Below, one piece after another: positions 15,370 through 63,324 of a DNA stretch of 64,000 bases. The DNA comes from Schaalia sp. HMT-172 (lineage in GTDB: Bacteria; Actinomycetota; Actinomycetes; Actinomycetales; Actinomycetaceae), in the NCBI RefSeq assembly GCF_030644365.1, contig NZ_CP130058.1, positions 310,001-374,000 of the forward strand, read 5' to 3'. The position numbers were made by a program, and so were the translations under genes. The notes below the pieces were generated by a model, which was given only the letters and a program-made list of their open reading frames with translations, was not told the DNA's origin and made no database searches. Every line of letters begins with the position of its first letter. Position 1 is the stretch's first letter.

Positions 15370-18300
15370 ATGAACGCACAAGCGCGACGAAACCTGACCA
15401 GCGCGAGACGACGCCTGCCGGCGCTCGTCCTCATGCTGGTCGTTGTTGCGCTCTGCGTCGCCGGCGTCATCTACAAGGGTGCCGAAATCACCCAGGTTGA
15501 CGTCAACGATGGCGGAATTTGGGTGACAAACAAGTCCAAGCAGATGGTCGGGCACCTCGACTATGAGGCCCGAATCCTTGACGGGGCGCTGCGGACGGAG
15601 GCTACCAACTTCGACGTCGGTCAGTCCGCCGAAACCGTCACTGTCTCCGACCTGACCTCACTTACTGTTGCCCCGGTCAATGTTACGCAGGTGTCCCTCG
15701 GGTCCCCGACGGCGCTGCCCGCGGGCTCGGCCGTCATGCAGGGTGGAGACGTCCTCGGCGTGCTCAATGCGACGGATGGCACACTGTGGACGACCTCGGC
15801 CACCTCCCCGAGCCCCACCGCCCTCTCCGACGGCGCCGCCGTGGCCTCGAACATGGGTGCGAGCGCCTTCGTGACCGGCATGGACGGAACCGTCTACGCC
15901 CTCTCCTCCTCCGGCACCCTGACGACCGTGAAGCGCCAGGGTTCCGTCGACCAGGCGAAGACCTCGACGATTGAGGGCATCCCCGCCGACGCCCAGCTGT
16001 CCATGACGGTCGTCGGCGACCAGGTCGTCGCCCTCGACTCCGCGTCCAACACTCTTTTCCTGCCCGGCGGCCGCACCCTCAACCTGAACGCCGCCGGCGT
16101 CGAGGAGGGCGGCGTCCTCCAGCAGGCGGGTCCCAAGGCGGACTCCGTTCTCCTGGCGACCCCTTCCACCCTGGTGACGATCCCCCTCAAGGGCGCCGCT
16201 CCCACGATCACCCCAGCCGCTGAGGGCTCGCCCGTCGGCACCCCCGCGGCCCCCGTGCGCCACGAGGGCTGCGCCTACGGCGCCTGGACCGGCTCGGGCG
16301 CCTACCTGCGCTCGTGCGACGACCCCGCCTCCAACAGGCAGCAGGTCGTCGACACGCTCACGAGCGCCCGCGAGATCGTCTTCCGCACCAACCGTAAGGC
16401 CATCGTCCTCAACGACGTCGCCCAGGGCAGCGTGTGGCTGCCCGACTCGAACATGGTCCTCATGGACAACTGGGACGAGGTCGAAAACCAGCTCGAGGAA
16501 ACCGAGGAGGAGCAGGATAGCCCCCAGCTCACCAACGAGATCGCCGACCCCGAGCAGCGCGAGGAGAACACCCCGCCCGAGGCAGTGGATGACGAGTTCG
16601 GTATCCGCCCGGGGCGCTCGACGATCCTGCCGGTCCTGGACAACGACTCCGACCTTGACGGAGACGTCCTGACCGCCTCCCCGACCTCCCAGCCGGCGTG
16701 GGGCGCGGTCACCGCTGCGCGCTCGGGACGAGCCCTGCAGATCACGGGCGTGAGCGTGGATCAGACCGGATCGACGTCCTTCTCCTACGAGGCCTCGGAC
16801 GGCCTCGCGTCCGCCGCCGCGCGCGTGCAGGTCACGATCCACCCCTACGGGCAAAACGAGGCCCCCACGCAGCTGCGAGCCTCCTCCGTCAAGATCGGCG
16901 CGGGTGCCCAGATCCAGTACCAGGCGCTGAGCGACTGGCGCGACCCCGACGGCGACCCGATCTACCTGAAGAACGCCGAGGCCCCCGAGGGGCTGAGCGT
17001 CACCTTCACCGAGGACGGCTCCCTGACCATCACCGAGGAGGGCGGCTCCGCCGGCCCCAAGACCGTGGTCCTGACCGTCGCTGACGACCAGGGCGGCGAG
17101 ACGCGCGGTGAACTCACCGTCAACGTCCAGGAGCCGGGCAACCTGCCGCCCACGGCCAACGGTGACCTCTACCAGGCCCACCCCGGCGAGACGGTGACCC
17201 TCGACCCGCTGAAGAACGACACGGATCCCAACGGCGACTCGCTGAGCCTGGCCGCCGTGTCCGGCGCGCCCGCTGGCGCCTCCATCACGCCGGATCTGGA
17301 CCGCGGCACCATCGACTTTGTCGCGGCTTCTCCCGGCTCCTACTCCTTCGCCTACACGGTCTCCGACGGCATCGCGTCGACGCTGGGCATGATCCGCGTC
17401 GAGGTCGTCGAGGCCGCTGCGCTGCCGCCCGTCGCCGAGGACGATACCGCGGTCCTGCCGCAGGGTGGCTCGGTGCTGGTGGCGCCCCTGGGCAACGATT
17501 ACGATCCCACGGGCGGCGTCTTGACGATCACCTCGATCGACTACTCCTCCGTTCCCGGCCTCGAGGTCGCCCTCATCGACCGCCACCTGCTGCGCGTGAC
17601 CGCGCCCGCGGGCCTCGACAAGAGCGTGTCCTTCTCATACTCCGTCACCAACGGCCAGGGATCGGCCACCGCTCAGGTGACCGTCATCCCGGGTGCCTCC
17701 GACCGCACGGACCTGCCGCCCGTCCTCAAGCCCGACCGAGCCAAGGTGCGCGTCGGCGACGTCGGAACCGTGTCCGTCCTGTCCAACGACCGCTCCCCGG
17801 CCGGCCTGAACCTGCAGGTCGAGTCGACGCTCGAGTACGACCCGACCACCGCCCTGGGCACGCCCTTCGTGACCGGCAACCAGGTGCGCCTCGAGGCCGG
17901 GGACACCCCCGGCACGATGGATGTCACCTACTCCGTCATCGACTCCGCGGGCAACCGCGCCTCCAGCACCGTCACCTTCGAGGTCTTGGCCGCCTCCGAC
18001 TCCAACCAGGCGCCGCGACCCCGCGACATCACGGCGTGGGCGACGGCCGGGCAGACCGCCCGCATCCCGGTGACCCTAGACGGCATCGACCCGGACGGCG
18101 ACTCCGTGACCCTCAAGAGCCTGGACTCTTCGCCGCAGAAGGGGTCGGCGACCGCGAAGGCCACGTGGATCGAGTACACGCCGAACGCTGACGCGTCGGG
18201 CACGGATTCCTTCACCTACACGGTTGAGGACCGCCAGGGCGCCCGTGCTTCGGCGCGCGTGCGCGTCGCCGTCACGCCCGTCCCGGCGCTCAACCAGAAC

Positions 18301-21300
18301 CCCGTCGCCGTGCCCGACACGGTCCTGACCCGACCCGACCGTATGGTGACCGTCAACGTCCTGGCCAACGACCTCGACCCGGACGGCGATCCCCTGACCC
18401 TGGAAGAGGGCAGCCTCGAGACGGCCACGCCCGAGCTCGACCCCCAGGTCCGCTCGACCACGACCGTCCAGGTGCACACGCCCTCCCAGGCCGGCACCTA
18501 CCTCGTGTCCTACACGGTGAGCGACGGCCGCGGCGGGGTCGCGCGCGGCACGCTGACGGTGTATGTCCAGGACGACGCGCCCCTGAAGGCGCCGATCGCC
18601 CGCGACGACTACGTCGCCTACGAGGACCTGCCGACCGATGGTTCCGCCGTGCGCGTGAAGGTCCTCGACAACGACGAGGACCCCGACGGCAGCATCGACG
18701 AGCTGACCGTGACCACCGCCGAGGCGGGCGTGAGCGTCTCCGGCTCCGAGCTGCTCATTCCCGTCACGGACTCCAAGCGCCTCGTCGTCTACACGATCAC
18801 CGACCGCGATGGCCTCACGAACTCGGCCGTCGTCACGATCCCCGGACGCGACTCGACCGCGCCCTTCCTGAGCTCGGCGAACCTGCCGATCGAGATGGAC
18901 GCGGGTACCTCGCGCACGATCAACCTGTCGGATTACGTCATCACTCGCGCCGGGCGCACCCCGCGCCTCGTCGAGGGCTCCTCCCCAGTGCCCCAGAACG
19001 GCCTCGACTCCGTCGTGGCTGACTCGGACACGCAGCTCACCCTGACCGCCAACGCCTCGTTCTCGGGCAACTCCGCGTTCCTCATCCAGGTCGCGGACGG
19101 CGACAGCAGCGACGCCGGCGCGCTGAGCGCCTCCCTGTCGCTGCCCGTGCGCATCAAGGCGACCACGAACCAGCCGCCCACCTTCACTCCGACCGCGATC
19201 CGCGTCGAGGCCGGCGGCGAGGCCGTGACCCAGAACCTCGCGCTGGGCGTGCGCGACCCCGAGGGCGTGGACGTCACGACCTTCACCTACGCGATGGACT
19301 CCTCGCCGTCCACCATCACGGCGTCCCTGTCGGGCACCACCCTGACCGTGTCCGCCCCCGAGGGAACCCCGAAAGGTTCCGCGGGGTCGATCGCGGTGAG
19401 CGTCACCGACGAGGACAACAACAAGGTCAGCGCGCAGATTCCCGTCGAGGTCGTCGTCTCCGACAAGCCGCTCATCCAGGTGCCCGCGTACACTCTGACC
19501 GCCAAGATCGGCGACACGGTGAGCGTCGACGTGGCGTCCTCCGCGACCAACCCGTACCCGGAGTCGCCGATCACCCTGGAGAGCGCCACGCTGTCTGCGG
19601 GCAGCGCGACTGTCGCCACGTCGGGCACGACCGTGTCGGTCACCCCGAGCGCGTCCGGCACGATCACCGTCAGCTTCAAGGTCAACGACAAGCTGGGCGA
19701 CCCCGCGCGCGCCGTCCAGGGAACCATTACCGTCACGGTGACGGGCAAGCCGGCCGCCCCTACGCGCGTGACGGCCGAGGCCGAGGGATCGAATGGCGCT
19801 CGCGTGACCTTCAACGCGCCGGAGTCCAACGGCTCCCCGATCACCGAGTACCGCGTCTTCGACCAGACGGGACGCCAGGTCGCCACCTGCTCCACCAACG
19901 TCTGTAGCGTCGCGGGCCTGAGCGACGGCCAGACCTACTCCTTCACCGTCGAGGCGGTCAACAAGGAGGGCACGTCCGAGCGTTCGACGGCCTCGAACAC
20001 CATCACGATCTCCGGTGCGCCGGGACGCCCCGGCACCCCCCAGCTGTCGGCCGGAAACACGACGATTAGCGCGTCGTGGTCCGCTCCCGTCGACAACGGC
20101 TCTGCGATCACCGGCTACATCGCGACCGCGACGACCGCGACCGGCGAGGCGGGCTACTGCGAGACCACCGGCGTGACCTCCTGCGTCATCCAGGGGCTCA
20201 AGAACGGTCAGACCTACACGGTGACGGTGCGGGCACGCAACGCCAAGGGAGAGTCCGCGCCCTCGTTCGGCGCGAAGGCAACCCCGACCGCACCCCTGGC
20301 GGACCCGGACACGCCCTCCATCATGAGCGCAACCGTGCGCAACGCGGCAGACCGCAACAAGGTGGAGATCACCCTGACGTGGAGCTACTTCAAGTCTGGC
20401 GGTGAGGGCTGGGGCGCCACGACGGTCACCGTCAACGGTGAATCCAAGACCGTGTCCGGTGGCTCTGGCAATGAGACGAACGGAACAGGCACGACGACCA
20501 TGACCGTCAATCGCGCGGACGTGCTGCGGGCGACCGTGACGGTGAGCAACACGGGAGGCCGCACGGCCACCTCGCCCGCCAAGAACTACACCCCGCCCGC
20601 GCTCGAGCCCGAGCACGAGGCCAAGACCACTCCGCTCGCCCCCGACGCGCCGAGGATGGGCCCGACCTCGGACAACGCCCTGGGCAAGATTCGCATCACC
20701 AACGTGCGCCTGAAGGAAGGCAACGGCTACACGGTCAACGACCTGGAGATGTACTACCAGGACAGCGCGGAGGGCTGCACGACCAACGGCAACCCCGTCG
20801 CCTTCAACAACGGTCAGACCGCCGATTTTGATCTCGGCCCGCTTACCCCGGGTTCGACGATGACCTTCTACTTCTGCCAGCGCGGCAAGAAGGATGACGG
20901 CTCCTACGTCTGGAGCCCGGTGACGGCGGCTAGCGGCACGGTCGGCAACGGCCAGCGGTCGGGCCCCGATGATGACGACGACACCCCGATCCCCGTGTTC
21001 AACGTGTCGGTGACCCCCTACATCAACAGCGCGTCCGTGTCGTGGACTGTGCCCGCCGGCGTTAACCCCGCGCAGATCAGCGTGTGGGTGAAGGGAATGG
21101 AAGGGTCGACCAAGCAGACGTTCAGTGGTCCGATGACCTCGTGGACGGTCTCGGGTCTGGCGCCGGTCAACCAGTACACGGTTGTCGTCGAGATGGTCAG
21201 CGCTGGCGGGGCACACCGTCAGGTCGAAGCCACCTTCACAACCACCGAAGCCGCGGAGAATGTCGGCGCGACTTTCGACGGAAAAACCACGTGTTCGAAC

Positions 21301-21519
21301 GGACAGGAATGCGGCTCGATGACGCTGACAGCCAAACGAGCCTCCCAGTTCGGACCGGGGGTCACCCTCGTCTGCACGGTCAGCACCGGGCGCCCCGCCC
21401 AAAACACCGAATTCCGCTTCTCACGGGACACGCCGAGCATACCGGGTATCCTGACGGAAGCAATCACCGCCAAAGAGCTCAATGCGCGGAACGTCGTAAA
21501 GAGCTGCCGAGTCGAATAG
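15370..21519 (+). CDS. Giant membrane-anchored Ig-like/FN3 protein, module 1
   Basis: The 2,049-residue type II membrane protein has a short basic cytoplasmic tail, one transmembrane helix (residues ~16-34) and everything else outside. After a beta-propeller-like region (~40-380, Gly/Ser/Thr-rich) come many Ig/cadherin-like repeats with acidic DNDSDLDGD-type loops, likely Ca-binding. Two FN3 domains follow at ~1460-1640 (APTRVTAEAEGSN; SWSAPVDNGSAITGY), then a Cys-containing tail. No LPXTG signal is seen. It corresponds to 'fn3' of the bifidobacterial PFNA cluster as I recall it. A surface adhesive or structural role is inferred. It is the first gene of a five-gene operon. Confidence 0.9.
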   Translation: MNAQARRNLTSARRRLPALVLMLVVVALCVAGVIYKGAEITQVDVNDGGIWVTNKSKQMVGHLDYEARILDGALRTEATNFDVGQSAETVTVSDLTSLTVAPVNVTQVSLGSPTALPAGSAVMQGGDVLGVLNATDGTLWTTSATSPSPTALSDGAAVASNMGASAFVTGMDGTVYALSSSGTLTTVKRQGSVDQAKTSTIEGIPADAQLSMTVVGDQVVALDSASNTLFLPGGRTLNLNAAGVEEGGVLQQAGPKADSVLLATPSTLVTIPLKGAAPTITPAAEGSPVGTPAAPVRHEGCAYGAWTGSGAYLRSCDDPASNRQQVVDTLTSAREIVFRTNRKAIVLNDVAQGSVWLPDSNMVLMDNWDEVENQLEETEEEQDSPQLTNEIADPEQREENTPPEAVDDEFGIRPGRSTILPVLDNDSDLDGDVLTASPTSQPAWGAVTAARSGRALQITGVSVDQTGSTSFSYEASDGLASAAARVQVTIHPYGQNEAPTQLRASSVKIGAGAQIQYQALSDWRDPDGDPIYLKNAEAPEGLSVTFTEDGSLTITEEGGSAGPKTVVLTVADDQGGETRGELTVNVQEPGNLPPTANGDLYQAHPGETVTLDPLKNDTDPNGDSLSLAAVSGAPAGASITPDLDRGTIDFVAASPGSYSFAYTVSDGIASTLGMIRVEVVEAAALPPVAEDDTAVLPQGGSVLVAPLGNDYDPTGGVLTITSIDYSSVPGLEVALIDRHLLRVTAPAGLDKSVSFSYSVTNGQGSATAQVTVIPGASDRTDLPPVLKPDRAKVRVGDVGTVSVLSNDRSPAGLNLQVESTLEYDPTTALGTPFVTGNQVRLEAGDTPGTMDVTYSVIDSAGNRASSTVTFEVLAASDSNQAPRPRDITAWATAGQTARIPVTLDGIDPDGDSVTLKSLDSSPQKGSATAKATWIEYTPNADASGTDSFTYTVEDRQGARASARVRVAVTPVPALNQNPVAVPDTVLTRPDRMVTVNVLANDLDPDGDPLTLEEGSLETATPELDPQVRSTTTVQVHTPSQAGTYLVSYTVSDGRGGVARGTLTVYVQDDAPLKAPIARDDYVAYEDLPTDGSAVRVKVLDNDEDPDGSIDELTVTTAEAGVSVSGSELLIPVTDSKRLVVYTITDRDGLTNSAVVTIPGRDSTAPFLSSANLPIEMDAGTSRTINLSDYVITRAGRTPRLVEGSSPVPQNGLDSVVADSDTQLTLTANASFSGNSAFLIQVADGDSSDAGALSASLSLPVRIKATTNQPPTFTPTAIRVEAGGEAVTQNLALGVRDPEGVDVTTFTYAMDSSPSTITASLSGTTLTVSAPEGTPKGSAGSIAVSVTDEDNNKVSAQIPVEVVVSDKPLIQVPAYTLTAKIGDTVSVDVASSATNPYPESPITLESATLSAGSATVATSGTTVSVTPSASGTITVSFKVNDKLGDPARAVQGTITVTVTGKPAAPTRVTAEAEGSNGARVTFNAPESNGSPITEYRVFDQTGRQVATCSTNVCSVAGLSDGQTYSFTVEAVNKEGTSERSTASNTITISGAPGRPGTPQLSAGNTTISASWSAPVDNGSAITGYIATATTATGEAGYCETTGVTSCVIQGLKNGQTYTVTVRARNAKGESAPSFGAKATPTAPLADPDTPSIMSATVRNAADRNKVEITLTWSYFKSGGEGWGATTVTVNGESKTVSGGSGNETNGTGTTTMTVNRADVLRATVTVSNTGGRTATSPAKNYTPPALEPEHEAKTTPLAPDAPRMGPTSDNALGKIRITNVRLKEGNGYTVNDLEMYYQDSAEGCTTNGNPVAFNNGQTADFDLGPLTPGSTMTFYFCQRGKKDDGSYVWSPVTAASGTVGNGQRSGPDDDDDTPIPVFNVSVTPYINSASVSWTVPAGVNPAQISVWVKGMEGSTKQTFSGPMTSWTVSGLAPVNQYTVVVEMVSAGGAHRQVEATFTTTEAAENVGATFDGKTTCSNGQECGSMTLTAKRASQFGPGVTLVCTVSTGRPAQNTEFRFSRDTPSIPGILTEAITAKELNARNVVKSCRVE

Positions 21520-21560: not shown

Positions 21561-22526
21561 ATGACCCTTTCCATTGAGGACGCAACCCGGTTCGCCCAGG
21601 TCTTCAAGGGCCTCGTCGACGGCGTGTCGGTCGCGGTTCTGGACAAGCGCCAGGCAGTGCGACTCGCGCTGACGACCATGTTCGCAGGCGGTCACCTCCT
21701 GCTAGAAGACGCCCCCGGTACCGGCAAGACCGCGCTGGCGCGCGCCATCAGCGCCACCATCGACGGCACGCACTCGCGTATCCAGTTCACCCCCGACCTG
21801 CTGCCCTCGGATATCACGGGCGTCAACATGTTCAACCAGAAGACGGGCGAGTGGGTCTTCCACGCCGGCCCCGTCTTCGCGGAGATCGTCCTGGCCGACG
21901 AGATTAACCGCGCCTCGCCCAAGACCCAGTCCGCGCTCCTGGAGGTCATGGAAGAAGCCCAGGTGACGGTCGACGGCGTGCGCCGCCCCGCGCCCCAGCC
22001 CTTCATGGTCATCGCGACCCAGAACCCCGTCGAGCAGGCCGGCACCTACCCGCTGCCCGAGGCCCAGCTGGACCGCTTCCTCATGAAGACCTCCATCGGC
22101 TACCCCTCGCGCGCCGCCATGATCGACGTCCTCGACGGCTCGGCCGCGCCCGACCGCTCGAAGAATCTGCGTCCCCTCGTGAGCGGCAAGGACATCGTCG
22201 CCTGGTCGGCCCTGGCCTCGGGAAACCACACGGACCGCGCCGTCCTCGACTACGTGGCCGCCCTCGCTGAGGCAACCCGCGAGGACGAGTCCTCGCTGCT
22301 GGGTGTGTCCACCCGTGGCGCCATCGGCATGGTGCGCTGCGCCCGCGTGTGGGCGGCCGCGCAGGGCCGTAACTTCGTCCTGCCCGACGACATCAAGGCC
22401 CTGGCCGTGCCCGTGTGGGCGCACCGCATTATCGTCGACCCGGACGCCGCGTTCTCGGGCGCGACCTCCGAGGGCGTCATCCAGCGTGCCCTGACCTCGG
22501 TGCCCGCCCCGGCGGTGGGCGCGTAA
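21561..22526 (+). CDS. MoxR-family AAA+ ATPase
   Basis: Chaperone-like ATPase, 321 residues. Walker A is EDAPGTGKT, Walker B is VLADEINRA, and sensor 1 lies in IATQNPVEQAGTYPLPEAQLDRF, a hallmark of MoxR proteins. The family typically works with a DUF58 or VWA partner encoded next door, as here. It lies 41 bp after the giant FN3 gene and directly before DUF58. It is the only MoxR in the window although the rest of the module is duplicated, so it may serve both DUF58 proteins. Confidence 0.95.
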   Translation: MTLSIEDATRFAQVFKGLVDGVSVAVLDKRQAVRLALTTMFAGGHLLLEDAPGTGKTALARAISATIDGTHSRIQFTPDLLPSDITGVNMFNQKTGEWVFHAGPVFAEIVLADEINRASPKTQSALLEVMEEAQVTVDGVRRPAPQPFMVIATQNPVEQAGTYPLPEAQLDRFLMKTSIGYPSRAAMIDVLDGSAAPDRSKNLRPLVSGKDIVAWSALASGNHTDRAVLDYVAALAEATREDESSLLGVSTRGAIGMVRCARVWAAAQGRNFVLPDDIKALAVPVWAHRIIVDPDAAFSGATSEGVIQRALTSVPAPAVGA

Positions 22527-22576: not shown

Positions 22577-23773
22577 ATGGTCTCGCCCCGCAGGGCGCAG
22601 GCCTCCCGTCCGCATCCCCTCAAAGCCCTGGCGAGCGCGGTGACGCCCACCGGGTGGGCGCTCGTCGTGCTTATCGCGGTGGCCCTCATCCTGGCGGCGA
22701 CGCTGGAGTGGGTCGAGGCCCTGGCGTGCGCGCTCGCCGGCGTCGTCGCCCTGGTCCTGGCCGCCACCCGCGTCGCCTGGAAGTCCCCGCACGTCGTGTC
22801 GATTCGCGTGCCGAACGAGCGCATCGTCGCAGGCCAGACGGCCGTCGGCGAGATTTTGGTGCGCAACGAGCGCGCCCGCCCGGTGCGCTCGGGCATTATC
22901 GAGCTCCCGATCGGTTCGGGCACGGGCGAATTCGTGGTGCCGCCGCTGGGCTCCCACGAGAAGTGGGACGAGATGTTCCTGATCTCCTCGCGTCACCGCG
23001 GCCTCATTCACGTCGGCCCGGCCCGCGCCGTGCGCTCCGACGCCCTGGGCCTGCTGCGCCGCGTGCGCGTGTGGGACGAGCCCGTCGTCCTGCACGTGCA
23101 CCCGCGCACGGTGCGCGTGCCCTTCGACGCGACCGGCTTCCAGCTGGACGTCGAGGGCGTGTCCACCGGCAAGCTGTCCAGCTCGGACGTGTCCTTCCAT
23201 GCGCTGCGCGACTACGAGCCGGGCGACGATCGACGCGCCGTGCACTGGCAGTCCACGGCCCGCCTCGGAAAGCTCATCGTGCGCCAGTACGAGGAGACGC
23301 ACCGCTCCCACCACGTCATCGTGCTGGACACCTCCCGCGACGCATGGGACTACGACTCCTTCGAGACGGCCGTGTCGGTCGCGGGCTCGCTGGGCCTGGC
23401 GAACCTGCGCGAATCCCGCCCGGTGTCGGTGACGACGACGGAGACGTGGCTGCCCTCGACGGTCGCGATGCGGCTCCTGGACTCTCTGTCCGAGGTCTCT
23501 GCGCGCTCCTTCGGTGACCTGGCCCTGCGCGTGCGCGAGGCCGTGGCGCAGCGCCCCGGTGTCTCCGCCCTCACGCTTATCGTCGGTCCTCAGACTACCG
23601 ATTCGGACGCCGCGCACCTGGCCCGCCTGGCGCCCATCGACGTGCCCGTTTCCATCATTCGCATCGGCGCTGATCGGGCGCGCGGACGCCGCGACCTCGG
23701 CCGAGGCGTCCTCCTCGACTGTTCGACCCTGGATGACCTGCCGCGCATCATCGTCGCCGGGGGTCTCGCATGA
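22577..23773 (+). CDS. DUF58 membrane protein, module 1
   Basis: The 398-residue protein has two hydrophobic helices near residues 20-70 (WALVVLIAVALILAATLEWV), then a beta-rich domain and the DUF58 core motif RDYEPGDDRRAVHWQSTARL. The latter part adopts a VWA-like fold in family models. The start is uncertain: the ATG at 22577 has AGGGA upstream at long spacing, while the in-frame ATG at 22547 has none. It overlaps the next gene by 4 bp (ATGA). A 144-bp patch around the core motif is almost identical to module 2. Confidence 0.92.
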   Translation: MVSPRRAQASRPHPLKALASAVTPTGWALVVLIAVALILAATLEWVEALACALAGVVALVLAATRVAWKSPHVVSIRVPNERIVAGQTAVGEILVRNERARPVRSGIIELPIGSGTGEFVVPPLGSHEKWDEMFLISSRHRGLIHVGPARAVRSDALGLLRRVRVWDEPVVLHVHPRTVRVPFDATGFQLDVEGVSTGKLSSSDVSFHALRDYEPGDDRRAVHWQSTARLGKLIVRQYEETHRSHHVIVLDTSRDAWDYDSFETAVSVAGSLGLANLRESRPVSVTTTETWLPSTVAMRLLDSLSEVSARSFGDLALRVREAVAQRPGVSALTLIVGPQTTDSDAAHLARLAPIDVPVSIIRIGADRARGRRDLGRGVLLDCSTLDDLPRIIVAGGLA

Positions 23774-44378: not shown

Positions 44379-44669
44379 ATGTCTGATATTCTGTACAACT
44401 ACGGTCAGATTGAGCAGGCTGTTGCTGATATGGGTGCGGGTGTGAACTCGCTCAATGGCAAGCTTGAGGATATGGATTCGCAGCTGCGTCAGCTGCAGTC
44501 GTCCTGGGATGGTCAGGCGAAGCAGGCGTATGAGGTGTCTAAGGCGAAGTGGACTGATGGCATGAACGGGATCGTGGAGATCCTGCAGAGTGTGTCGGCT
44601 GCTGTGTCTGAGGCTCGTCAGTCTGCTGAGGCCACGGATTCGCGTAACGCTGCTGCTTTTGGTGGCTGA
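44379..44669 (+). CDS. WXG100 (ESAT-6-like) protein 2
   Basis: The 96-residue helical hairpin has the WXG turn at SSWDGQAKQAY. It lies 25 bp after WXG100 protein 1, with GGGAAGG upstream. The pair is the typical EsxA/EsxB-like heterodimer. A perfect 11-bp hairpin follows, likely limiting read-through into the GRGG gene. Confidence 0.96.
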   Translation: MSDILYNYGQIEQAVADMGAGVNSLNGKLEDMDSQLRQLQSSWDGQAKQAYEVSKAKWTDGMNGIVEILQSVSAAVSEARQSAEATDSRNAAAFGG

Positions 44670-47913: not shown

Positions 47914-48022
47914 CGTTAGTCCTTCCGGTTGGTGTGTGCCAGCTGTCGTTGTTGGCGGGTTAGCCAACGGGGCTTGCGTGGATAGTTGCTGTGTTGATTC
48001 TGGGGACGCGGCGCGTGTGCTG

Positions 48023-49036: not shown

Positions 49037-49053
49037 CCGTGGTGGCCGCGCTG

Positions 49054-56500: not shown

Positions 56501-57625
56501 GACCTCGACATGACGATCGGCATGATGCTGAGCCGCGCCCTGACCTTCGGCGTCCACCTCGTGACGTCCACGTCCCGCTGGAGCGACTTCCGCATGCAGG
56601 TCGCCGACATGCTCGGCTCGAAGCTCGAGCTCAAGATCGGTGACTTCCGAGACTCGGAGATCGACCGCAACATCCAGAAGCAGATCCCGAACGCGCGCCC
56701 CGGCCGCGGCGTTGAGGTCACGAAGCATCACGTCCTCATCGGCCTGCCTCGCGCCGACGGCGAACCGGATCCGACGACCGTCACCGAAGGCATCGGGCGC
56801 ACGCTCGAAATGATCCGCGCGGCCCTGCCCGCCGGCCCCGGCCCCAAGCTGCGCCTGCTCCCGACCCGCATCACGGCCGACGAGATCGCGCAGCTGCCCG
56901 GCGCGCTCGCCCCGGCGGAAGGCCCCGCTCCCGCGCTCATGCTCGGCGTCGAAGAATCGCGCCTGGGCCCCTACCGCCTCGACCCCAACGTCGAACAGCA
57001 CCTCTACCTGTTTGGCGACTCGAAGTCCGGCAAGACCACCTTCCTGCGCTCCCTCGCGAAGGAAATCATGGCGCGCAACACCCCCGAGCAGGCCAAGATC
57101 GTCTCCGTCGACCTGCGCAGGGCCTCGCTGGGCCTCGTGCCCTCCGAGTACTCGGCCGGCTACCTCACACGCATCGAGGACGTCGCCAGCGACATCCGCG
57201 AGCTCGCCGAGTTCCTCAAGATGCGACTGCCCGGCGACGACGTGACCGCCGAGCAGCTCACCAACCGCTCCTGGTGGAAGGGCCCCGAGGTCTGGATCCT
57301 CGTCGACGACTACGACCTGGTCGTCACCTCCGAAGGCAATCCGCTGATGCCCCTCCAGCCGCTCCTCTCCCAGGCGGGTGACGTTGGCCTCCATTTGGTC
57401 ATCACGAGGCGCATGGGCGGCGTGTCGCGTGCCCTCTACGAGCGCATCCTCCAGACGCTCATCGACCTGGGCACGACAGGCATCCTGTTGTCCGGTAACC
57501 CTGACGAGGGTCAGGTTATCGGCCGCGTGAAGCCGGTCCGCGCAGAGCCCGGTCGAGCGATCGTCGTCTCGCGCGACGCGGGCGTCTTCCGGGCCCAGCT
57601 GGCCTACTCGGATCCCGTCCGCTAG
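53573..57625 (+). CDS. eccC: Type VII secretion motor ATPase EccC
   Basis: 1,350 residues, a fused EccCa-EccCb. Two N-terminal helices (~33-55 and ~70-90) are followed by three FtsK/SpoIIIE-type ATPase domains with Walker A motifs GATGSGKS (492-499), GGPLTGKS (857-864) and GDSKSGKT (1148-1155). Walker B ends Asp606-Glu607 in domain 1, Asp966-Asn in domain 2 and Asp1245-Asp1246 in domain 3. Only domain 1 therefore has the classical catalytic Glu. It drives export and recognises WXG100 signals. The ATG at 53573 follows GGGAGGAA. Confidence 0.97.
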   Translation: MADSEDLLEGVPEMPEGKIPIQAPPNQAEAAGIGNVLAMVIPMMGSMGVMVFMAISQATSGDGQAKNPTMMMMAGGMVFAMVAMVGFNVYRQVSQHRQKVKTLRGEYLSYLAETRQTVRNVADRQRAFVNWALPAPEALVAIADQGERVWEREPGIEMLNARVGVSEQGLSMELIAPDLPPMATPDIVCLSAMTRFIETHRNLDSVAFGIPLEDYSHIELAGRHEDAIGVARLIMTHLATFVSPTYLRIAVLCSSERLAEWDWVKWLPHAGSTVESDAVGPARMVVTEVADLLDLLGPDIVDRPGFSPRDDLTPWPHVLLVCDGAELPATTQLGSPEGAVGVTVINLHDKWGALTSPSTVRLLIHPAVKGENRGALEVNLFSHQAIVGEWEHVGQAQAESIARRLTPFAAQDKSKDTDAPVGRSDVKRTVDLMELLHLGDIRDFDPEKAWVRREGRNRLRVPFGVTPEGIPVLIDIKEAAQQGMGPHGLLIGATGSGKSEVLRTLVLALALTHSPEQLNLVLVDFKGGATFAGMSSLPHVSAMISNLESELSLVDRMQDALKGEMVRRQEVLRDAGNYANVTDYEADRMAGKHNFPPMPALFLILDEFSELLTAKPEFADLFVAIGRLGRSLSIHLLLASQRLETSRMKGLESHLSYRVGLKTFSASESREVLGVPDAYELPSLPGSGYLMPGTDELIRFRASYVAAPPPPRTVSSTQAATAGTPDRQIKVLPFTLAPVLTRDEPDNAPASTGQAMVLPEDAQWADMTEMDIAVAKMAGKGMPAHQVWLPPLEEPDTFDQLMPDLAPVEGLGFVSMQWRERGTLVFPMGTKDLPLEQRRDVLTFDLSGAAGNFAVVGGPLTGKSMVLRSFVMSLSLIYTPQEVQFYIIDLGGGTFASFVDAPHVAGVATRDTHEILTRMIAEIRGIIEDRERYFRDNKIDSIETYRRGRAEGRYDDGYGDVFLVIDNWASLKADFDDLDMTIGMMLSRALTFGVHLVTSTSRWSDFRMQVADMLGSKLELKIGDFRDSEIDRNIQKQIPNARPGRGVEVTKHHVLIGLPRADGEPDPTTVTEGIGRTLEMIRAALPAGPGPKLRLLPTRITADEIAQLPGALAPAEGPAPALMLGVEESRLGPYRLDPNVEQHLYLFGDSKSGKTTFLRSLAKEIMARNTPEQAKIVSVDLRRASLGLVPSEYSAGYLTRIEDVASDIRELAEFLKMRLPGDDVTAEQLTNRSWWKGPEVWILVDDYDLVVTSEGNPLMPLQPLLSQAGDVGLHLVITRRMGGVSRALYERILQTLIDLGTTGILLSGNPDEGQVIGRVKPVRAEPGRAIVVSRDAGVFRAQLAYSDPVR

Positions 57626-57710: not shown

Positions 57711-58583
57711 ATGGCTCTGGGTGAACATGCGGAGCGCCCCGCCCTTCGGTGGGGCGCGTCGACTGATATCGGTCCGGTCCGCGCAGAAAACGAGGACTCC
57801 TGGCTGGCGGTCTCGCCCGTCTTCGCGGTCGCCGATGGAATGGGCGGCCACCTCGGCGGCGCCCAGGCCTCGTCCCGGGCCGTCATCACGCTCCAGGAGT
57901 TCCTGAGCCCCGGTCGGCTCGGCAACCGGCCCGTCGACCTCGTCGATCTCTCCGTCGCCATCGACGCCGCCGCCACCTCGGTCGCGGCTCTCGCACCCGC
58001 CGACAACCCGATGAGCGCCCCGGGAACCACCCTGTCCGGCCTCATGGTTCTGCGCACCACCGAGGGGCCCTACTGGCTGTCCTTCAACGTCGGCGACTCG
58101 CGCGCCTACGTCGTGGGAGGCGGCGGCATCCGCCAGCTCACCCACGACCACTCCGCCCTGCAGGAGGCGCGCGACCTCGCGGCCACCTCCGGCGCGCCCC
58201 GCGTCATCCCTCCCGCCAACGTTGTCACCAAGGCGCTGGGTGCCGGACAGTCAGGAAGTGTGAAAGCCGACTACACGATCATGCCGCTCGAAGAAGGCGA
58301 CCGTGCGGTCATCTGTACAGACGGGGTGCACGGCGTCCTCCAAGACGCGCAGATTCACGCCATTGTCGCCGTCGGTGACGGCCCGCAGGGGAGCGCCGAC
58401 GCACTCGTTCAGGCCAGCCTCGAGACCGGAACTCGTGACAATACGACGGCCGTTGTAGTTTACGCAGGAACCGAATCACGAGTAACATTGACATCGAATG
58501 TCCTGAATCGCATGATTCAACCAGTACGTCCGGCGTCGATCCAGACCGCACGCCGGGTCCCTCGTAGAGAAGGCAGTAACTGA
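57711..58583 (+). CDS. PP2C-family Ser/Thr protein phosphatase
   Basis: 290 residues, soluble. Metal-binding motifs of the PPM/PP2C family are intact: VRAENEDS, VADGMGGHLGG, VGDSRAYV, CTDGVHG and TRDNTTAVVV. It should oppose the two transmembrane kinases by removing phosphate from Thr/Ser. The C-terminal ~35 residues are basic and probably disordered. It is directly downstream of a 14-bp inverted repeat and overlaps the FHA gene by 1 bp (TGATG). It is the only phosphatase seen in the window. Confidence 0.95.
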   Translation: MALGEHAERPALRWGASTDIGPVRAENEDSWLAVSPVFAVADGMGGHLGGAQASSRAVITLQEFLSPGRLGNRPVDLVDLSVAIDAAATSVAALAPADNPMSAPGTTLSGLMVLRTTEGPYWLSFNVGDSRAYVVGGGGIRQLTHDHSALQEARDLAATSGAPRVIPPANVVTKALGAGQSGSVKADYTIMPLEEGDRAVICTDGVHGVLQDAQIHAIVAVGDGPQGSADALVQASLETGTRDNTTAVVVYAGTESRVTLTSNVLNRMIQPVRPASIQTARRVPRREGSN

Positions 58584-59938
58584 TGCTTCAGATTGGACGC
58601 TTCCTGTGCCGCGGACAGGGCGCGATGCTCGTCACCGGACCGCTCGGTGCGGCGTTGGTTCCGCTGGACTTCGCGGACTCCGCCGCCGACGTCGTGTGGG
58701 GCCGTGCCGACACGCAGGCGTGGCTCTCCCATGTGCAGGCCGAGCGGGGCGACGTCCTGCTGCTCGACTGCGCGGGCGAGCAGCCCTACCTGACGGTCCT
58801 CGGCAACATCCAGTTGCGCATGCGCGCCGCCGGGCAAATCACCGAGCAGGTGTGGACCGACCCGATCTGGGCCTGGCCCTTCAACCCCGGCGAGTGGCAG
58901 ACCTTCGAGGCGACCATCATCGAAGGCGACGAGGTCACGTGGATGGTTCCCGCCGCCGACCGTGTCGAGGCCGCCGAGATTCGCATCGGTCGCGCCCTGG
59001 ACGAGGTCGAGGCCCTGGCCTCCATGCCCGTCGACACGATGGGCTTCCTCATCAACCCCGACATTCCCGACCACGAGCGCCGCGCCCGCCGCGAGGCCCG
59101 CGAGGAGCTGCCCGAGCCGTCGCTGCACACCTCCTCCGTCGACCTGGCGGCCGTCGAGGCCCAGTTCCTCGCGGCCACCAGCAACGGCCCCGTGTCCCTG
59201 ACCCCCTCCACTCGGGCCGCGACCCACTCCGGGGACGAGGCCGCGAAGGCTCCCGCGGAAACCCTCACGGAGGAAGCTCCCGAGCCGGTTGAGGAGACCA
59301 CCGAGCGGGACGCCGAGCAGCCCTCGGGCGAACTCTACGTTGTCGCCGACGCGGAAGAGCCGCCGGTTGACACCGCCGAGTCCGCCGAGCGCGCGGGTGG
59401 CTTCGGCGAGTCCGGCGCCCCGGCCTCGTCCGAGGCTGAGAAGCAGCCCGCGGCCGAGCCCGAACCCGAGATGGCACCCGAGCCGCCCGCCGCCCCCGAG
59501 GCGATGAGCGCCGAGGGCCTGGCTGACCTGGGTGCCGAGACGGACACTGAGGCCACGATCCTGCGCCTCGCCCCCGTCAACTCCGGGCCCGCCGCGCCCG
59601 TCGCTTTCCTCATCCACGGCGGCACCGTGCCCGTCGAGGTGTCCCGCGACGTCGTCATCGGCCGCGACCCCGACGCGCGCGCCCTCACCGGCCGCCCCGT
59701 TGCCACCGTGCTGCGCGTCCCCAGCCCGGCCACCGAGATCTCGCGTTCCCACTGCGCCGTCATGATGACGACGCCCGGCTCGTGGGCCCTCATGGACCTG
59801 GGCAGCGCCAACGGCACGGTCCTGCGCCACGCGGACGGCTCCTTCCAGGACGTCACCCCCATGGTGACGATCGCCCTGAACGACGGCGACCTCATCGACG
59901 TCGGCGAGGGAACCACCATCGAGTTCCGCGTGCGCTGA
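58583..59938 (+). CDS. FHA domain protein
   Basis: 451 residues. A unique N-terminal domain (~1-190, MLQIGRFLCRGQGAMLVTGP) is of unknown type. An acidic Glu/Ala/Pro-rich linker (~200-315) contains TEATILRL, a possible kinase site. The C-terminal FHA domain (~340-450) has VIGRDP, SRSHCAV and LGSANGT. There is no membrane segment. It probably binds phosphothreonines made by the locus kinases and relays them to the secretion machinery. Tight coupling to the phosphatase supports this. Confidence 0.92.
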   Translation: MLQIGRFLCRGQGAMLVTGPLGAALVPLDFADSAADVVWGRADTQAWLSHVQAERGDVLLLDCAGEQPYLTVLGNIQLRMRAAGQITEQVWTDPIWAWPFNPGEWQTFEATIIEGDEVTWMVPAADRVEAAEIRIGRALDEVEALASMPVDTMGFLINPDIPDHERRARREAREELPEPSLHTSSVDLAAVEAQFLAATSNGPVSLTPSTRAATHSGDEAAKAPAETLTEEAPEPVEETTERDAEQPSGELYVVADAEEPPVDTAESAERAGGFGESGAPASSEAEKQPAAEPEPEMAPEPPAAPEAMSAEGLADLGAETDTEATILRLAPVNSGPAAPVAFLIHGGTVPVEVSRDVVIGRDPDARALTGRPVATVLRVPSPATEISRSHCAVMMTTPGSWALMDLGSANGTVLRHADGSFQDVTPMVTIALNDGDLIDVGEGTTIEFRVR

Positions 59939-60075: not shown

Positions 60076-61095
60076 GTGAAGAGTCGCGTGCGGATGATCG
60101 TCGTTCTCGTGTGTGTTTTTGTTGTGCTGCCGGTGGTGGGTGGCCTCGTGTATCTGTCGAGGATCAGTGCTGAGGCGGCTGCGCGCTACTACGCCGAGGC
60201 GATCGCTCAGGGGCGCTTCGAGGACGCGATGGCGGTTGAGAGCGCCGACGCCGACGCCGATCCCAATGTCGGGCGTGGCGACGCCGTCGACCTGCGGCGA
60301 CTCCAGCGCTCGTCGAGTACTCCAGCGATGAGCGTGACCGGTGTGTGGGTGCACACTAACCCGGATGGCAACGGGCGGCAGGGGGTCAATATCGAGTTCT
60401 CAATGAACGGCGCCACGACGACCCGCGTCATCTACATGGAGCGCTCGGGTCTGCCCAAGCCGCACTTTGGCTCGTGGAGGGTCGTTTCCAGTGCGGCGCG
60501 TAAGGTCACTGTGTCCGCGGACGGGTACGCCTCAGACCTGTCGATTGCTGGAGTGTCGCTCGGGGACGTCGGAGCGACCAAGGGGAGTACTCGGATCTTT
60601 CCTCCCGTGACTGACGACTTGTGGCACTACGCTGGAGGCGGCGGCGTCGTGTACGCGTATCCCGGTGTCTACGACATGAGCGTGAGCCGAATCAGTGAGT
60701 ATACCGACTATGTCGTCGACTCTGTCCCGGGGGCTACGACGATCAATATGTTCGATGATCAGCTAGCCCACCATATCGACATCTCCCTGAACGAAGAAAC
60801 GAAGGCCTGGCAGCAGGAGCAATTCGTGCCTCTTCTGGAATCGTGCATTCGCGGGGAAAGCCCAGAGCAGGCCATGTGTCCCGATCTTAACGTTGCGGAT
60901 GTTGAGTCAATTGACGTAGGGGAGGTCAGTGACAGCTTGCCGGGGAGCTTGGCTGCCTACAATATCGTGGTGATCACGCGGGAGCACCGTATCTGGTTGG
61001 ACGTGAGTGGCGCGGTCTGCTTCGACGAGGCCGGCCAGCGATACATCGTCTTCACGATCGATCGACAGAGGGCCGAAGATCGAGGCAGCCGGTAG
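60076..61095 (+). CDS. Single-pass membrane protein, tandem paralogue 1
   Basis: 339 residues, GTG start with AGAGGAAG upstream. The N-terminal helix (~5-27, MIVVLVCVFVVLPVVGGLVY) is followed by AARYYAEAIAQGRFEDAM, a pattern like NTF2-type small external domains, then beta-rich sequence. Two late Cys pairs are visible (SCIRGE, AMCPDL, AVCFDEAG). It is paralogous to the next two genes. The 5' ends and leaders are nearly identical while the 3' halves differ strongly. The function is unknown. It is probably an external accessory of the secretion or signalling system. Confidence 0.82.
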   Translation: MKSRVRMIVVLVCVFVVLPVVGGLVYLSRISAEAAARYYAEAIAQGRFEDAMAVESADADADPNVGRGDAVDLRRLQRSSSTPAMSVTGVWVHTNPDGNGRQGVNIEFSMNGATTTRVIYMERSGLPKPHFGSWRVVSSAARKVTVSADGYASDLSIAGVSLGDVGATKGSTRIFPPVTDDLWHYAGGGGVVYAYPGVYDMSVSRISEYTDYVVDSVPGATTINMFDDQLAHHIDISLNEETKAWQQEQFVPLLESCIRGESPEQAMCPDLNVADVESIDVGEVSDSLPGSLAAYNIVVITREHRIWLDVSGAVCFDEAGQRYIVFTIDRQRAEDRGSR

Positions 61096-61167: not shown

Positions 61168-61284
61168 GTCCGTCTGTCAGCCCCACGTCCGTTTCTAGTA
61201 GACTCTTCTTTGTTGACCACTTGGAAGTCGCGAGCGCGGGCGCTGGCCGCATCCGGGAGGACGCCTGAGAGAGGAAGTGATGTC

Positions 61285-62295
61285 GTGAAGAGTCGCGTGC
61301 GGACCATCGTCGTCCTCGTGTGTGTTTTTGTTGTGCTGCCGGTGGTGGGTGGCCTCGTGTATCTGTCGAGGATCAGTGCTGAGGCGGCTGCACGCTACTA
61401 CGCCGAGGCGATCGCCCAGGGGCGCTTCGAGGACGCGATGGGCGTGGAGACTGCCGAATTGCTGTCGGAGGTCGGGGAGGAGGTGCCCGATCTGCGTCGA
61501 AGCCAGCCGTCGTCTCTCGCGAGCGTGACGGGTGTGATCGCGATCGGCGATCCTGACGGCGACGGCAAGCAGGACGTGTGGGTTGAGATGAGTATTGACG
61601 GGCGTAGCTTCCGGCACATCATCTCTTTGGAGCGTTCGGGTTTGCCTCGTCCTCACGTGGGTTCGTGGCGGGTGTCCGAGGGGCTCGCTCAATTCGACCA
61701 TGTCACCCTGGAGGGCTATGCCTCAGACGTCAGTGTCGGCGGGGTGTCACTTGGCCCTGTGGGGACGACGAGCAGTGACGGTGTCGCTATTCCTGCGGGG
61801 GTGTCGGCCGATGGTGTGGTGCCCCAGCACGTTAATGCGACGACTGTCTATGCGTACCCGGGTGTCTATGAGGTTGCGGTCGATAAGGTGAGTGAGCATA
61901 CGGATGTGCTCATTAATTCCGAGGTTGGTGCCTCGTCGATTGAGTTGGCCGGGTACGGATCGGATCAGACGATCAGCATCATGCCTGACGATGAGACGCG
62001 CGCGTGGTTTGAGGGTGCCTTCGACTCGCTCGGGCGGTCATGTTTTGGATCGGAAGCAGCGCAGGGTGCACTGTGTCCCACTTTCGACTTTTCGGGTACT
62101 GTGACCGATGAACTGGCGGAGGAGAAGGTTTGGTGGGAGCCCAATGGTCTAGACGGTTCGGAAACGTTCTGGATTGAGACTGACGCCGATGTTGTTGCCG
62201 TCGAGCTGGCGGGTGCGCTGTGCTTCGACGAGGCGGGCGATGCTCGTGTCGTGTTCAGGGTCGGCGAGGAGTCTCACTACCCTTCGAACCGGTGA
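61285..62295 (+). CDS. Single-pass membrane protein, tandem paralogue 2
   Basis: 336 residues, GTG start matching paralogue 1. The ~85 bp before the start (GACCACTTGGAAGTCGCGAG and on) are nearly identical to those before 60076. The N-terminal helix and YYAEAIAQGRFEDAM are conserved. The middle (GYASDVSVGGVSLGPVGTTS, VYAYPGVYEVAVDKVSEHTD) is recognisable, and the last third is divergent apart from CFDEAG. No catalytic motif is visible. Confidence 0.82.
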   Translation: MKSRVRTIVVLVCVFVVLPVVGGLVYLSRISAEAAARYYAEAIAQGRFEDAMGVETAELLSEVGEEVPDLRRSQPSSLASVTGVIAIGDPDGDGKQDVWVEMSIDGRSFRHIISLERSGLPRPHVGSWRVSEGLAQFDHVTLEGYASDVSVGGVSLGPVGTTSSDGVAIPAGVSADGVVPQHVNATTVYAYPGVYEVAVDKVSEHTDVLINSEVGASSIELAGYGSDQTISIMPDDETRAWFEGAFDSLGRSCFGSEAAQGALCPTFDFSGTVTDELAEEKVWWEPNGLDGSETFWIETDADVVAVELAGALCFDEAGDARVVFRVGEESHYPSNR

Positions 62296-62349
62296 GTGGG
62301 CGCGTTGTGGCGCCCGTAGTGTTGTCGTAATGAGAGAAGAGGCTATGCC

Positions 62350-63324
62350 ATGAAGAATCGCGTGCGGACCATCGTCGTCCTCGTGTGTGTTTTTGTTGTG
62401 CTGCCGGTGGTGGGTGGCCTCGTGTATTCGTTCAGCGTGAGCGCGGAGGCGGCTGTGCGCTACTACGCCGAGGCGATCGCGCAGGGGCGCTTCGAGGACG
62501 CGATGGGCGTGGAGACTGCCGAATTGCTGTCGGAGGTCGGGGAGGTGCCCGATCTGCGCCGTGGCCGCGTGTCGGAGCCCAGTAGCGTGGTGAGCGTTCG
62601 GGTGTACGACGAGCGTGATGTACGGGGGCGTCAAGGGGCGAGCATTGATTTGTCCGTCAACGGGCGCACGATCACGCGCGAGATTTACCTGGAGCGTGTG
62701 GGTGTGCCCAGGCCGCACGTGGGCATGTGGCGCGTCGTCTCGGGCGCCGCGCACGTGGAGACGGTGCGGGCGTATGGCTACGCTTCCGATGTGAGTGTGG
62801 GAGGAGTGTCGTTGGGGGCGCTGGGCGCCTCCGGCGATGGCGGCGCAACCTTCCCGGTTGCCGCCTCGACGGATGGCCTGTGGCACGCGGGTTCTGGCGG
62901 CGCGGTCGTCTACGCCTACCCCGGCATCTACGATGTGTCGGTTGCCAAGGTCAGTGAGCATACTCAGGTGGCCGTTGACTCTGTCTCTGGGGCCTCGACT
63001 CTCAGTGTTCTCTCCGAGTCGAGAGAGCATCAGATCGATGTCACGCAGGATGAGAGCACTCGCGCCTGGCATGAGGATCAGCTCGGATCCGTCGCCAGCT
63101 CGTGCGTCCTGGGTGACGTGCCCGAGGGGGCCGTGTGTTCCAACATGTCGGTTGCGGGAGCCGAGCGGGTGGACGTGGAGGCCCCGACGCGCGACTCCGG
63201 TGATCTCCTCGAAGTGGCGGTTGCCGCGTATCGAAACGACGAGGGCATCGACGCTTTCATCGCGCACAGTCGGGTGTGCTTCGACGAAGAAGGCGAACCG
63301 CATATCGTCGTGATCCGTCCCTGA
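62350..63324 (+). CDS. Single-pass membrane protein, tandem paralogue 3
   Basis: 324 residues, with an ATG here (MKNRVRTIVVLVCVFVVLPV) aligned to the GTG starts of the other two. It has the same plan: helix, YYAEAIAQGRFEDAM, the LELLSEVGE-like acidic segment shared with paralogue 2, VYAYPGIYDVSVAKVSEHT and CFDEEGEP. It lies only 54 bp after paralogue 2, and its leader does not match the repeated leader of the first two copies. The role is unknown. Confidence 0.82.
   Translation: MKNRVRTIVVLVCVFVVLPVVGGLVYSFSVSAEAAVRYYAEAIAQGRFEDAMGVETAELLSEVGEVPDLRRGRVSEPSSVVSVRVYDERDVRGRQGASIDLSVNGRTITREIYLERVGVPRPHVGMWRVVSGAAHVETVRAYGYASDVSVGGVSLGALGASGDGGATFPVAASTDGLWHAGSGGAVVYAYPGIYDVSVAKVSEHTQVAVDSVSGASTLSVLSESREHQIDVTQDESTRAWHEDQLGSVASSCVLGDVPEGAVCSNMSVAGAERVDVEAPTRDSGDLLEVAVAAYRNDEGIDAFIAHSRVCFDEEGEPHIVVIRP

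Follow-up and report, generated by a model that had tools for sequence, protein, structure and literature searches.

The window analysed here, a 64,000-nt stretch of contig NZ_CP130058.1 (the genome, of 2.53 Mb, is a single contig), carries at positions 15370..63324 a type VIIa secretion system (T7SSa) interleaved with two modules that resemble the PFNA cluster of bifidobacteria. Each module encodes a giant surface protein with fibronectin type III (FN3) domains, a DUF58 protein, a membrane protein with a transglutaminase-like domain (TGM) and a transmembrane Ser/Thr kinase (KIN). The preferred reading, to which we assign a probability of roughly 0.58, is that the locus encodes a single composite machine, in which the T7SSa would be coupled, in its assembly or its firing, to the PFNA-like envelope module. 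What is observed directly is the anatomy of the proteins, the conserved gene sets, the missing transglutaminase cysteine and the recurrent pairing of the module with type VII (T7) ATPases of two kinds. From the anatomy, one phospho-controlled system is a reasonable proposal for the whole.

A third module of the same genome, which lies outside the window (G000:C1:551-574 kb), is of the EssC type, with the order FN3-MoxR-DUF58-TGM-FHA(RDD)-PP2C-FHA-KIN-U261-ATPase-WXG100. Its ATPase, or motor, comprises 1485 residues with an N-terminal FHA domain, FtsK/SpoIIIE domains and, as judged by eye, two hydrophobic segments; the best NCBIfam match is EssC (TIGR03928), at 547 bits against a cut-off of 778. 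Between KIN1 of the window and the kinase of this locus (KIN3), one blastp match covers only 23%, and another comparison gives 47%.

The same pairing recurs across the order sample (149 genomes), in which, as throughout, counts of loci and genomes were made by hand among the matches listed, weaker matches being listed in part. With the window genome left out, 59 genomes contain a TGM of at least 100 bits, and the usual order at these loci is FN3-MoxR-DUF58-TGM; some loci are cut, a few are without an FN3 match, and MoxR is missing in three (L106, L108 and L122). A T7-type ATPase lies within ~15 kb of the TGM in 23 of the 59, comprising 21 EssC-like proteins (weak in L103 and L131) and 2 EccCs. 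From a rough null of 2.6% per locus, which is our own estimate, ~1.5 such loci would be expected by chance (P 2e-21, kinship ignored). Of 12 weaker TgpA-like paralogues chosen by hand as controls, none has a T7-type ATPase within 15 kb among the matches listed, few or none being listed for some genomes. A search with the third-locus ATPase as query returned matches above 800 bits, here termed F-type ATPases, in 41 of the 149 genomes, the next score being 460. In 23 of these 41 a TGM is found on the contig of the ATPase at no more than 20 kb from it (the TGM score being under 100 bits in three), and a module is present in 32 of the 41 versus 28 of the other 108 genomes (odds ratio 10, Fisher 1.4e-8, kinship ignored).

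Eighty named loci, a set that leans heavily to Microbacterium, were read in addition. Fifty-nine of them reach 9 kb downstream, where 31 have an EssC-like motor, 8 a T7SSa and 20 neither; the remaining 21 are shorter. In three Microbacterium loci, two of them from metagenome-assembled genomes (MAGs), the order is KIN>U261>EccD>EccB>MycP, followed by EccC>WXG100>WXG100; in these, the T7SSa occupies the slot of the EssC-like motor. U261 itself (L004:16226-17011 (-)) is a conserved protein of ~260 residues that precedes the motor and has, by eye, an FHA-like N-terminus and no Pfam match. A second copy of it follows MycP in the Microbacterium T7SSa loci L152-L154.

The anatomy of the module proteins was compared across the same sample. 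The cysteine of the transglutaminase motif is absent from the TGM in 60 of 60 order-sample loci, and the histidine is kept in 16; for L110, L114 and L134 the motif letters fall in insertions of the alignment, and those segments are likewise without cysteine. Nine of the 12 control paralogues from the same order align over the motif, and all nine have GYC and HAW (the other three did not align). We take these Cys and His residues, which the controls retain, to be the catalytic transglutaminase positions. The 80 named loci were not counted for this result because they had been chosen with a pattern containing the altered active-site motif. Judged by its motif, the module TGM would not be a transglutaminase enzyme. 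No match to TGM2 was found among PDB sequences, nor did an NCBIfam scan of TGM, DUF58 and U261 return any.

Of 58 kinases, 55 retain all their kinase motifs. When the KIN2 ectodomain was aligned with 37 others, two invariant cysteines were seen, and Foldseek matches its model (predicted local distance difference test, pLDDT, 94.1) to FN3 domains from fibronectin and from cytokine receptors (best E 6e-6), so that an FN3 fold is predicted for it. At the base of the FN3 protein, a beta-propeller is predicted: residues ~29-346 of FN3-2 were modelled by AlphaFold2 (AF2) with a pLDDT of 92.8 and match beta-propellers (best E 1.9e-9, TM-score 0.58). Complete FN3 proteins possess a hydrophobic segment at the N-terminus in 56 of 60 cases and at the C-terminus in 1 of 60. 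An FHA motif, sought by regular expression, is present in 44 of 51 EssC-like ATPases versus 0 of 18 EccCs, repeats of one genome being kept in these counts; the 51 include two that resemble the ATPase of the type VIId secretion system (T7SSd), both without the motif. The EccC of the window likewise has no FHA motif, and separate FHA genes lie close by.

The sequence-only reading had held that module and secretion genes are physically linked. The four resolvable genomes of the genus (the window genome G000, G154, G204 and G223) all have EccC at a distance of 7 to 18 kb from a TGM, on which ground the possibility that the two occupy unrelated loci in this genus was rejected; in the fifth genome, G182, they are on different contigs. 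In a sample of 91 Actinomycetaceae genomes, 28 of them with a TGM at E 1e-25, module and EccC are 46 kb apart in G179 and 47 kb apart in G221, and on different contigs in G183, G176, G201 and G171. Eighteen order-sample genomes have both a TGM of at least 100 bits and an EccC above 600 bits, and in four of them (G000, G070, G099 and G124) the two lie within 50 kb. G111, whose TGM is under the bit cut, is a fifth linked genome, at ~32 kb. For 5 linked genomes of 19, a crude binomial estimate is 1.6e-4, with the window genome and G111 included and kinship ignored. The linkage thus stands for the genus and recurs in other families, but it is not universal.

A tree of MoxR, DUF58 and TGM sequences with 95 rows (INDEPENDENCE; LG+G4) requires at least five state changes, gains and losses together, to account for T7SSa linkage. 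The tree was a quick one without a mixture model; its 'no T7SSa' rows include loci cut by contig ends, L047 was submitted but is absent, G111 was left out and G124 was scored as unlinked. In one clade of nine rows (Actinomyces/Schaalia including both window copies, [Zimmermannella] bifida, and a Propionibacteriaceae MAG), eight are T7SSa-linked; Microbacterium L070/L089 and G099 are placed among EssC-type relatives and G070 among motor-less ones. These state changes, in distant families, the short or overlapping gaps within the gene blocks, and the controls described above all argue against an accidental or genomic-island clustering, by which T7SS and surface operons would gather in one variable chromosomal region and the nesting would be rearrangement without functional meaning. 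Such clustering could explain why G204 has copy 1 as an unbroken run on its own, why the orientation of the T7SS block towards copy 2 is reversed in G204 and in S. odontolytica, and why two families of flanking paralogues appear lineage-specific, a point on which no search was made; taken as a whole, it is distinctly unlikely.

Several observations weigh against a coupling of module and motor. The orthologue of copy 1 lies 64 to 154 kb from EccC in G154, G204 and G223; G196 and G137 are unlinked, with module and EccC 181 and 154 kb apart; and in 14 of the 18 order-sample genomes with a module and a canonical EccC the two are more than 50 kb apart or on different contigs. The F-type ATPase and the module are separated by 0.5 to 1.7 Mb in G083, G119, G047 and G031 and by ~90 kb in G069; G067 and G062 have this ATPase but no TGM match, and G090, G140 and G116 only weak ones. 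In G105, G054, G130 and G132 ATPase and module are on different contigs, and four further cases are broken by small contigs. No motor stands beside the module in any of 8 cases from family f3, which we infer to be Bifidobacteriaceae (one is cut by a contig end), or in any of 10 from family f13. Lastly, in 36 of the 59 surveyed loci the stretch read contains no T7-type ATPase, and contig ends cut at least 4 of the 36; G124, of family f3, has its EccC at 47 kb.

That modules without an adjacent T7 ATPase are so common favors the alternative that the module is an independent adhesion or host-sensing operon, as proposed for bifidobacterial PFNA, which shares a surface-gene region with the T7SS and whose kinase switch controls the module only. 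The reports that bifidobacterial FN3 binds TNF-alpha and that Pkb2 phosphorylates MoxR (excerpts of PMC8430577) point the same way. This alternative is nonetheless rather unlikely, since a T7 motor is found in the same slot across many families, 44 of 51 such motors bear an FHA motif of their own, and a T7SSa can fill the slot.

The sequence-only reading also spoke of a duplication. Two modules are present, but the term misleads: their products are 44% (FN3), 57% (DUF58), 46% (TGM) and 46% (kinase) identical, in the tree the first copy clusters with S. georgiae and the second with A. bouchesdurhonensis, and the two TGM copies lie 55 to 170 kb apart in G154, G204 and G223. A recent tandem duplication was therefore rejected, and the two modules are regarded as paralogues of old date. 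In G204, of the same genus, the genes FN3-MoxR-DUF58-TGM-KIN-PP2C-FHA form an unbroken run, whose products are respectively 76, 97, 88, 82, 85, 92 and 86% identical to FN3-1, MoxR, DUF58-1, TGM1, KIN1, PP2C and FHA1 of the window, and G154 and G223 have the same seven-gene run; the coordinates of G204 and G223 coincide with those of G231 and G230 (Actinomyces sp. HPA0247 and S. odontolytica FDAARGOS_732). In the window, PP2C and FHA1 are found 29.7 kb beyond KIN1, past copy 2 and the T7SS. By this comparison, PP2C-FHA1 belongs to copy 1, which is therefore read as one seven-gene set that encloses both copy 2 and the T7SSa.

The same nested arrangement is seen, within the stretch covered, in A. 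bouchesdurhonensis, the nearest named relative of the window genome in the collection (its TGM is 84% identical to TGM2), which places the window genome in the Actinomycetaceae close to Schaalia. In the stretches read from S. suimastitidis there is a single module, with the kinase on one side of the T7SSa and PP2C-FHA on the other; nesting therefore has no need of two copies. The order in S. georgiae is EccC > FN3 > MoxR > DUF58 > TGM > KIN > PP2C > FHA. The claim that both modules of the window contain MoxR had to be given up, as DUF58-2 begins 42 bp after FN3-2; copy 2 probably shares the single MoxR.

In the mechanism proposed for the composite machine, the FN3 protein would be a membrane-anchored rod, with the beta-propeller at the membrane, a cadherin/Ig shaft and the FN3 domains near the tip. 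MoxR and DUF58 would form an AAA+ chaperone pair that matures or remodels the membrane pseudo-transglutaminase and the rod, and the kinase, sensing rod or wall via its FN3-like ectodomain, would phosphorylate partners. Phosphothreonine on module or motor proteins would be read by FHA proteins, which in the EssC-like version are fused to the motor and in the T7SSa version would bridge, as separate proteins, to EccC/EccD. PP2C would reset the switch, and the motor would then export WXG100 proteins and co-encoded local cargo. The module may accept either translocase, the FHA-EssC-like ATPase in the third locus or the T7SSa in the window.

It is highly improbable that the T7SS is instead the junior partner, exporting the module's own proteins, such as the rod, and not regulated by the module. 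Giant rods and T7 motors do co-occur, and for T7SSd an envelope-spanning role of the Ig-like TsdI is proposed by Garrett et al. (excerpts of PMC11217815); however, the N-terminal hydrophobic segment of nearly all complete FN3 proteins (56/60) fits Sec-type insertion over T7 export.

Comparison with known systems shows that the window shares EccB, EccC, EccD, mycosin and a WXG100 pair with T7SSa, but differs in its two EccDs, in the interleaved kinase/PP2C/FHA/rod modules, and in EccE, for which no match was found among the locus proteins scanned against Pfam. By its gene set we take this T7SSa to be ESX-4-like, and EccE is not known from ESX-4-type systems either.

The bifidobacterial PFNA cluster, according to excerpts of PMC8430577, comprises pkb2, fn3, aaa-atp, duf58 and tgm, with or without prpC, a hypothetical gene and fha, and its order is always pkb2-fn3-aaa-duf58-tgm. 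The window resembles it in the five core protein types, of which copy 1 has all and copy 2 four, and in PP2C and FHA, with co-directional genes. Unlike in PFNA, the kinase comes last, downstream of TGM, in both copies, copy 2 is without MoxR, and a T7SSa is nested within. The earlier equation of the module with the PFNA cluster is thus borne out in content but not in arrangement, and PFNA-like is the right name because of the position of the kinase and the missing MoxR.

The PFNA and T7SS literatures do not meet in the open-licence PMC papers searched, among which no paper joining PFNA-type modules with T7SS was found; that on T7SSd (2024) comes nearest. In the main text of PMC8430577, as far as excerpted, 'secretion', 'WXG' and 'FtsK' are absent, as is 'secretion' from that of PMC6803598, likewise excerpted. 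PMC12067865 compares the mycobacterial moxR operon with PFNA, and its excerpts do not mention T7SS; PMC5720513 describes an Esx cluster in Actinotignum schaalii, and the terms 'fibronectin', 'FHA' and 'MoxR' are absent from it.

T7SSd (TsdA, C, D, H, I) contains an FHA-EssC ATPase, WXG100, a kinase, TsdH and the Ig-like TsdI (Garrett, Higginson and Palmer 2024, excerpts of PMC11217815), and fibronectin, MoxR, transglutaminase and DUF58 are absent from the excerpted main text. The third locus resembles it in its FHA-bearing EssC-like ATPase, WXG100, transmembrane kinase and giant Ig-like surface protein, but has no recognized TsdH or TsdI and does possess MoxR, DUF58 and TGM. Furthermore, whereas TsdI is described in those excerpts as Ig-like with a signal and a C-terminal transmembrane segment (TM), the module rod has an N-terminal TM and propeller and no C-terminal TM; and the kinase ectodomain is predicted to adopt an FN3 fold, whereas that of TsdD is described as helical. 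A T7SSd-like locus, L180 (20-12827), does occur in G082, of family f3, where it begins ~13 kb from a PFNA-like module; it encodes WXG100, a kinase, a 147-aa single-TM protein, a 1798-aa Ig-like protein with a C-terminal TM and a 1523-aa ATPase. That the third-locus ATPase is simply T7SSd was rejected, as L180 follows the A-D-H-I-C order of the published system and its ATPase branches separately, albeit on a long branch for which the tree tool warned of long branches meeting. Finally, excerpts of PMC7159879 describe MoxR-vWA-beta-propeller ternary systems (PF20030, bpMoxR), which the locus resembles in its bpMoxR match (2.3e-11) and in having a beta-propeller in the same operon, but from which it differs in that the propeller is predicted to be extracellular on a giant rod and DUF58 stands in place of vWA. 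The window MoxR scores 43.6 bits for bpMoxR versus 208 bits for AAA_3, the propeller is a prediction only, and no effector domains were noticed.

The arrangement is best regarded as a new form of T7SS organization, in which a PFNA-like, putatively phospho-switched rod module pairs with an EssC-like or a T7SSa motor. A broader proposal, tentative and with somewhat less than an even chance of being right, is that an undescribed subtype of type VII secretion, composed of rod, MoxR/DUF58/pseudo-transglutaminase, kinase/PP2C/FHA, FHA-EssC-like motor and WXG100, is widespread in Actinomycetales, with PFNA-like modules as its accessory half; that the motor was swapped for T7SSa several times; and that the bifidobacterial PFNA operon, with its immunomodulatory role, is left over from such a secretion system and has lost its motor or runs apart from it. 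If the coupling is real, two literatures would be joined, PFNA, studied in bifidobacteria for sensing host immunity and binding cytokines, becoming the signalling and surface half of a T7SS. The T7SS would gain a phospho-switch whose input (the FN3-like kinase ectodomain and the FN3 rod) and output (FHA on the motor) are both visible, and control of its firing would become testable in laboratory strains of Microbacterium.

Gene families of the locus were assigned by Pfam and NCBIfam profile scans of the window proteins, and hydrophobic segments by hydropathy; genes were called with the codon usage of the window, and lower-GC loci of other genomes were mapped by tblastn. The order is FN3-1 > MoxR > DUF58-1 > TGM1 > KIN1 > FN3-2 > DUF58-2 > TGM2 > KIN2 on the left; then < mycosin < EccB < EccD1 > WXG100 > WXG100 > Gly-rich < three surface paralogues; and < FHA2 < EccD2 > EccC > PP2C > FHA1 > three further paralogues on the right.

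Table 1. Genes of the locus in window coordinates (TM, transmembrane segment).
Feature	Position	Strand	Basis
FN3-1, giant surface protein: N-terminal TM, beta-propeller region (by homology to FN3-2), Big_9/cadherin repeats, 2 FN3 domains	15433..21519	+	Pfam, hydropathy; frame opens at 15370
MoxR AAA+ ATPase, sole MoxR of both modules	21561..22526	+	AAA_3 5.7e-62, bpMoxR 2.3e-11
DUF58-1	22577..23773	+	PF01882 1.4e-8
TGM1, multipass membrane protein; transglutaminase-like domain without catalytic Cys and His	23770..26448	+	PF01841 4.3e-13, TgpA_N; motifs LIGDDQQY, DIRAWVE
KIN1, single-pass Ser/Thr kinase, C-terminal ectodomain	26457..27980	+	Pkinase 1.2e-35; HRDIKPSN, DFG; TM 370-388
FN3-2: N-terminal TM, predicted beta-propeller (aa ~29-346), Big_9 repeats, 2 FN3 domains	28166..34150	+	Pfam; AF2 pLDDT 92.8; Foldseek beta-propellers
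DUF58-2, directly after FN3-2	34193..35458	+	PF01882 1.5e-8; gap 42 bp
TGM2, TgpA-like membrane pseudo-transglutaminase	35455..38025	+	PF01841 8e-15, TgpA_N; motif LIGDDEQY
KIN2, single-pass kinase, ectodomain predicted FN3 fold	38040..39587	+	Pkinase 1.5e-35; AF2 pLDDT 94.1; Foldseek
Mycosin (MycP), C-terminal TM	39592..40968	-	Peptidase_S8; TIGR03921 200 bits, under equivalog cut-off
EccB	40965..42485	-	PF05108 2e-52; TIGR03919 153.3 vs cut-off 154 bits
EccD1: YukD-like domain, 11 hydrophobic segments	42486..43841	-	PF19053, PF08817; TIGR03920 84 bits
WXG100 protein 1	44045..44353	+	PF06013 1.2e-13
WXG100 protein 2	44379..44669	+	TIGR03930 2.5e-17
Gly/Ala-rich 657-aa protein, candidate T7SS cargo (by position)	44798..46771	+	no Pfam/NCBIfam family
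Surface paralogue A1: signal-like N-terminus, C-terminal TM	46966..47919	-	sequence, hydropathy; no Pfam match
Surface paralogue A2	48023..48970	-	sequence; no Pfam match
Surface paralogue A3	49054..50004	-	sequence; no Pfam match
FHA2, membrane FHA protein, putative RDD-like N-terminus	50738..52012	-	PF00498 1.3e-4; 3 hydrophobic segments
EccD2, divergent	52009..53358	-	PF19053 9.2e-6, 25.2 bits vs cut-off 30
EccC translocase ATPase: three Walker A motifs, no FHA motif	53573..57625	+	TIGR03924/TIGR03925 827/763 bits
PP2C phosphatase	57711..58583	+	PF13672 7e-11; 92% identical to G204 orthologue, which directly follows KIN1 orthologue
FHA1, soluble FHA reader	58583..59938	+	PF00498 1.4e-8; 86% over 368 aa to G204, where the G204 stretch ends
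Paralogue B1, N-terminal TM	60094..61095	+	sequence, hydropathy
Paralogue B2	61297..62295	+	sequence
Paralogue B3	62350..63324	+	sequence

All the gene types named by the sequence-only reading (EccB, EccC, two EccDs, mycosin, WXG100, two kinases, one PP2C, two FHA proteins and two giant FN3 proteins) were found where it had placed them. EccB and EccD1 pass their Pfam cut-offs and EccD2 falls below those of both Pfam and NCBIfam; the NCBIfam equivalog cut-offs are missed by mycosin, EccD1 and, by 0.7 bit, EccB, and EccC is above its own. The gene content is more than chance because most matches pass curated cut-offs and the order recurs in relatives. An 875-aa frame at 39592-42219(-) was rejected as the mycosin gene because it is too long, the shorter frame in Table 1 overlapping EccB by 4 bp, as FHA2 does EccD2. 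Gaps from FN3 to kinase are -4 to 50 bp in copy 1 and -4 to 42 bp in copy 2, compatible with operons. FN3-1 and FN3-2 are ~2000 aa each, with Big_9/cadherin-like repeats, and FHA2 is 38% identical over 102 aa to FHA3, which has RDD.

The 657-aa protein directly after the WXG100 pair has, by eye, a helical N-terminus, followed by a long Gly/Ala/Arg repeat tail; possible relatives occur in S. odontolytica-like loci, though these matches may be of low complexity. The two families of three tandem paralogues, both without a Pfam match, differ in build, with a signal-like N-terminus and C-terminal TM at 46966-50004 (-) and an N-terminal TM at 60094-63324 (+), and may be lineage-specific and diversifying. 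Loci L017 and L020, titled Xylanimonas cellulosilytica 352_XCEL and Sanguibacter keddieii 250_SKED, resemble L018 of Schaalia odontolytica in order and sequence, and their titles may be wrong. In L198 (G091:C20:218000-237999), another MoxR-DUF58-TGM set, only weakly similar in its TGM, is preceded at several kb by a divergent FtsK-type ATPase (31% identical), which again pairs this trio with a T7-like motor.

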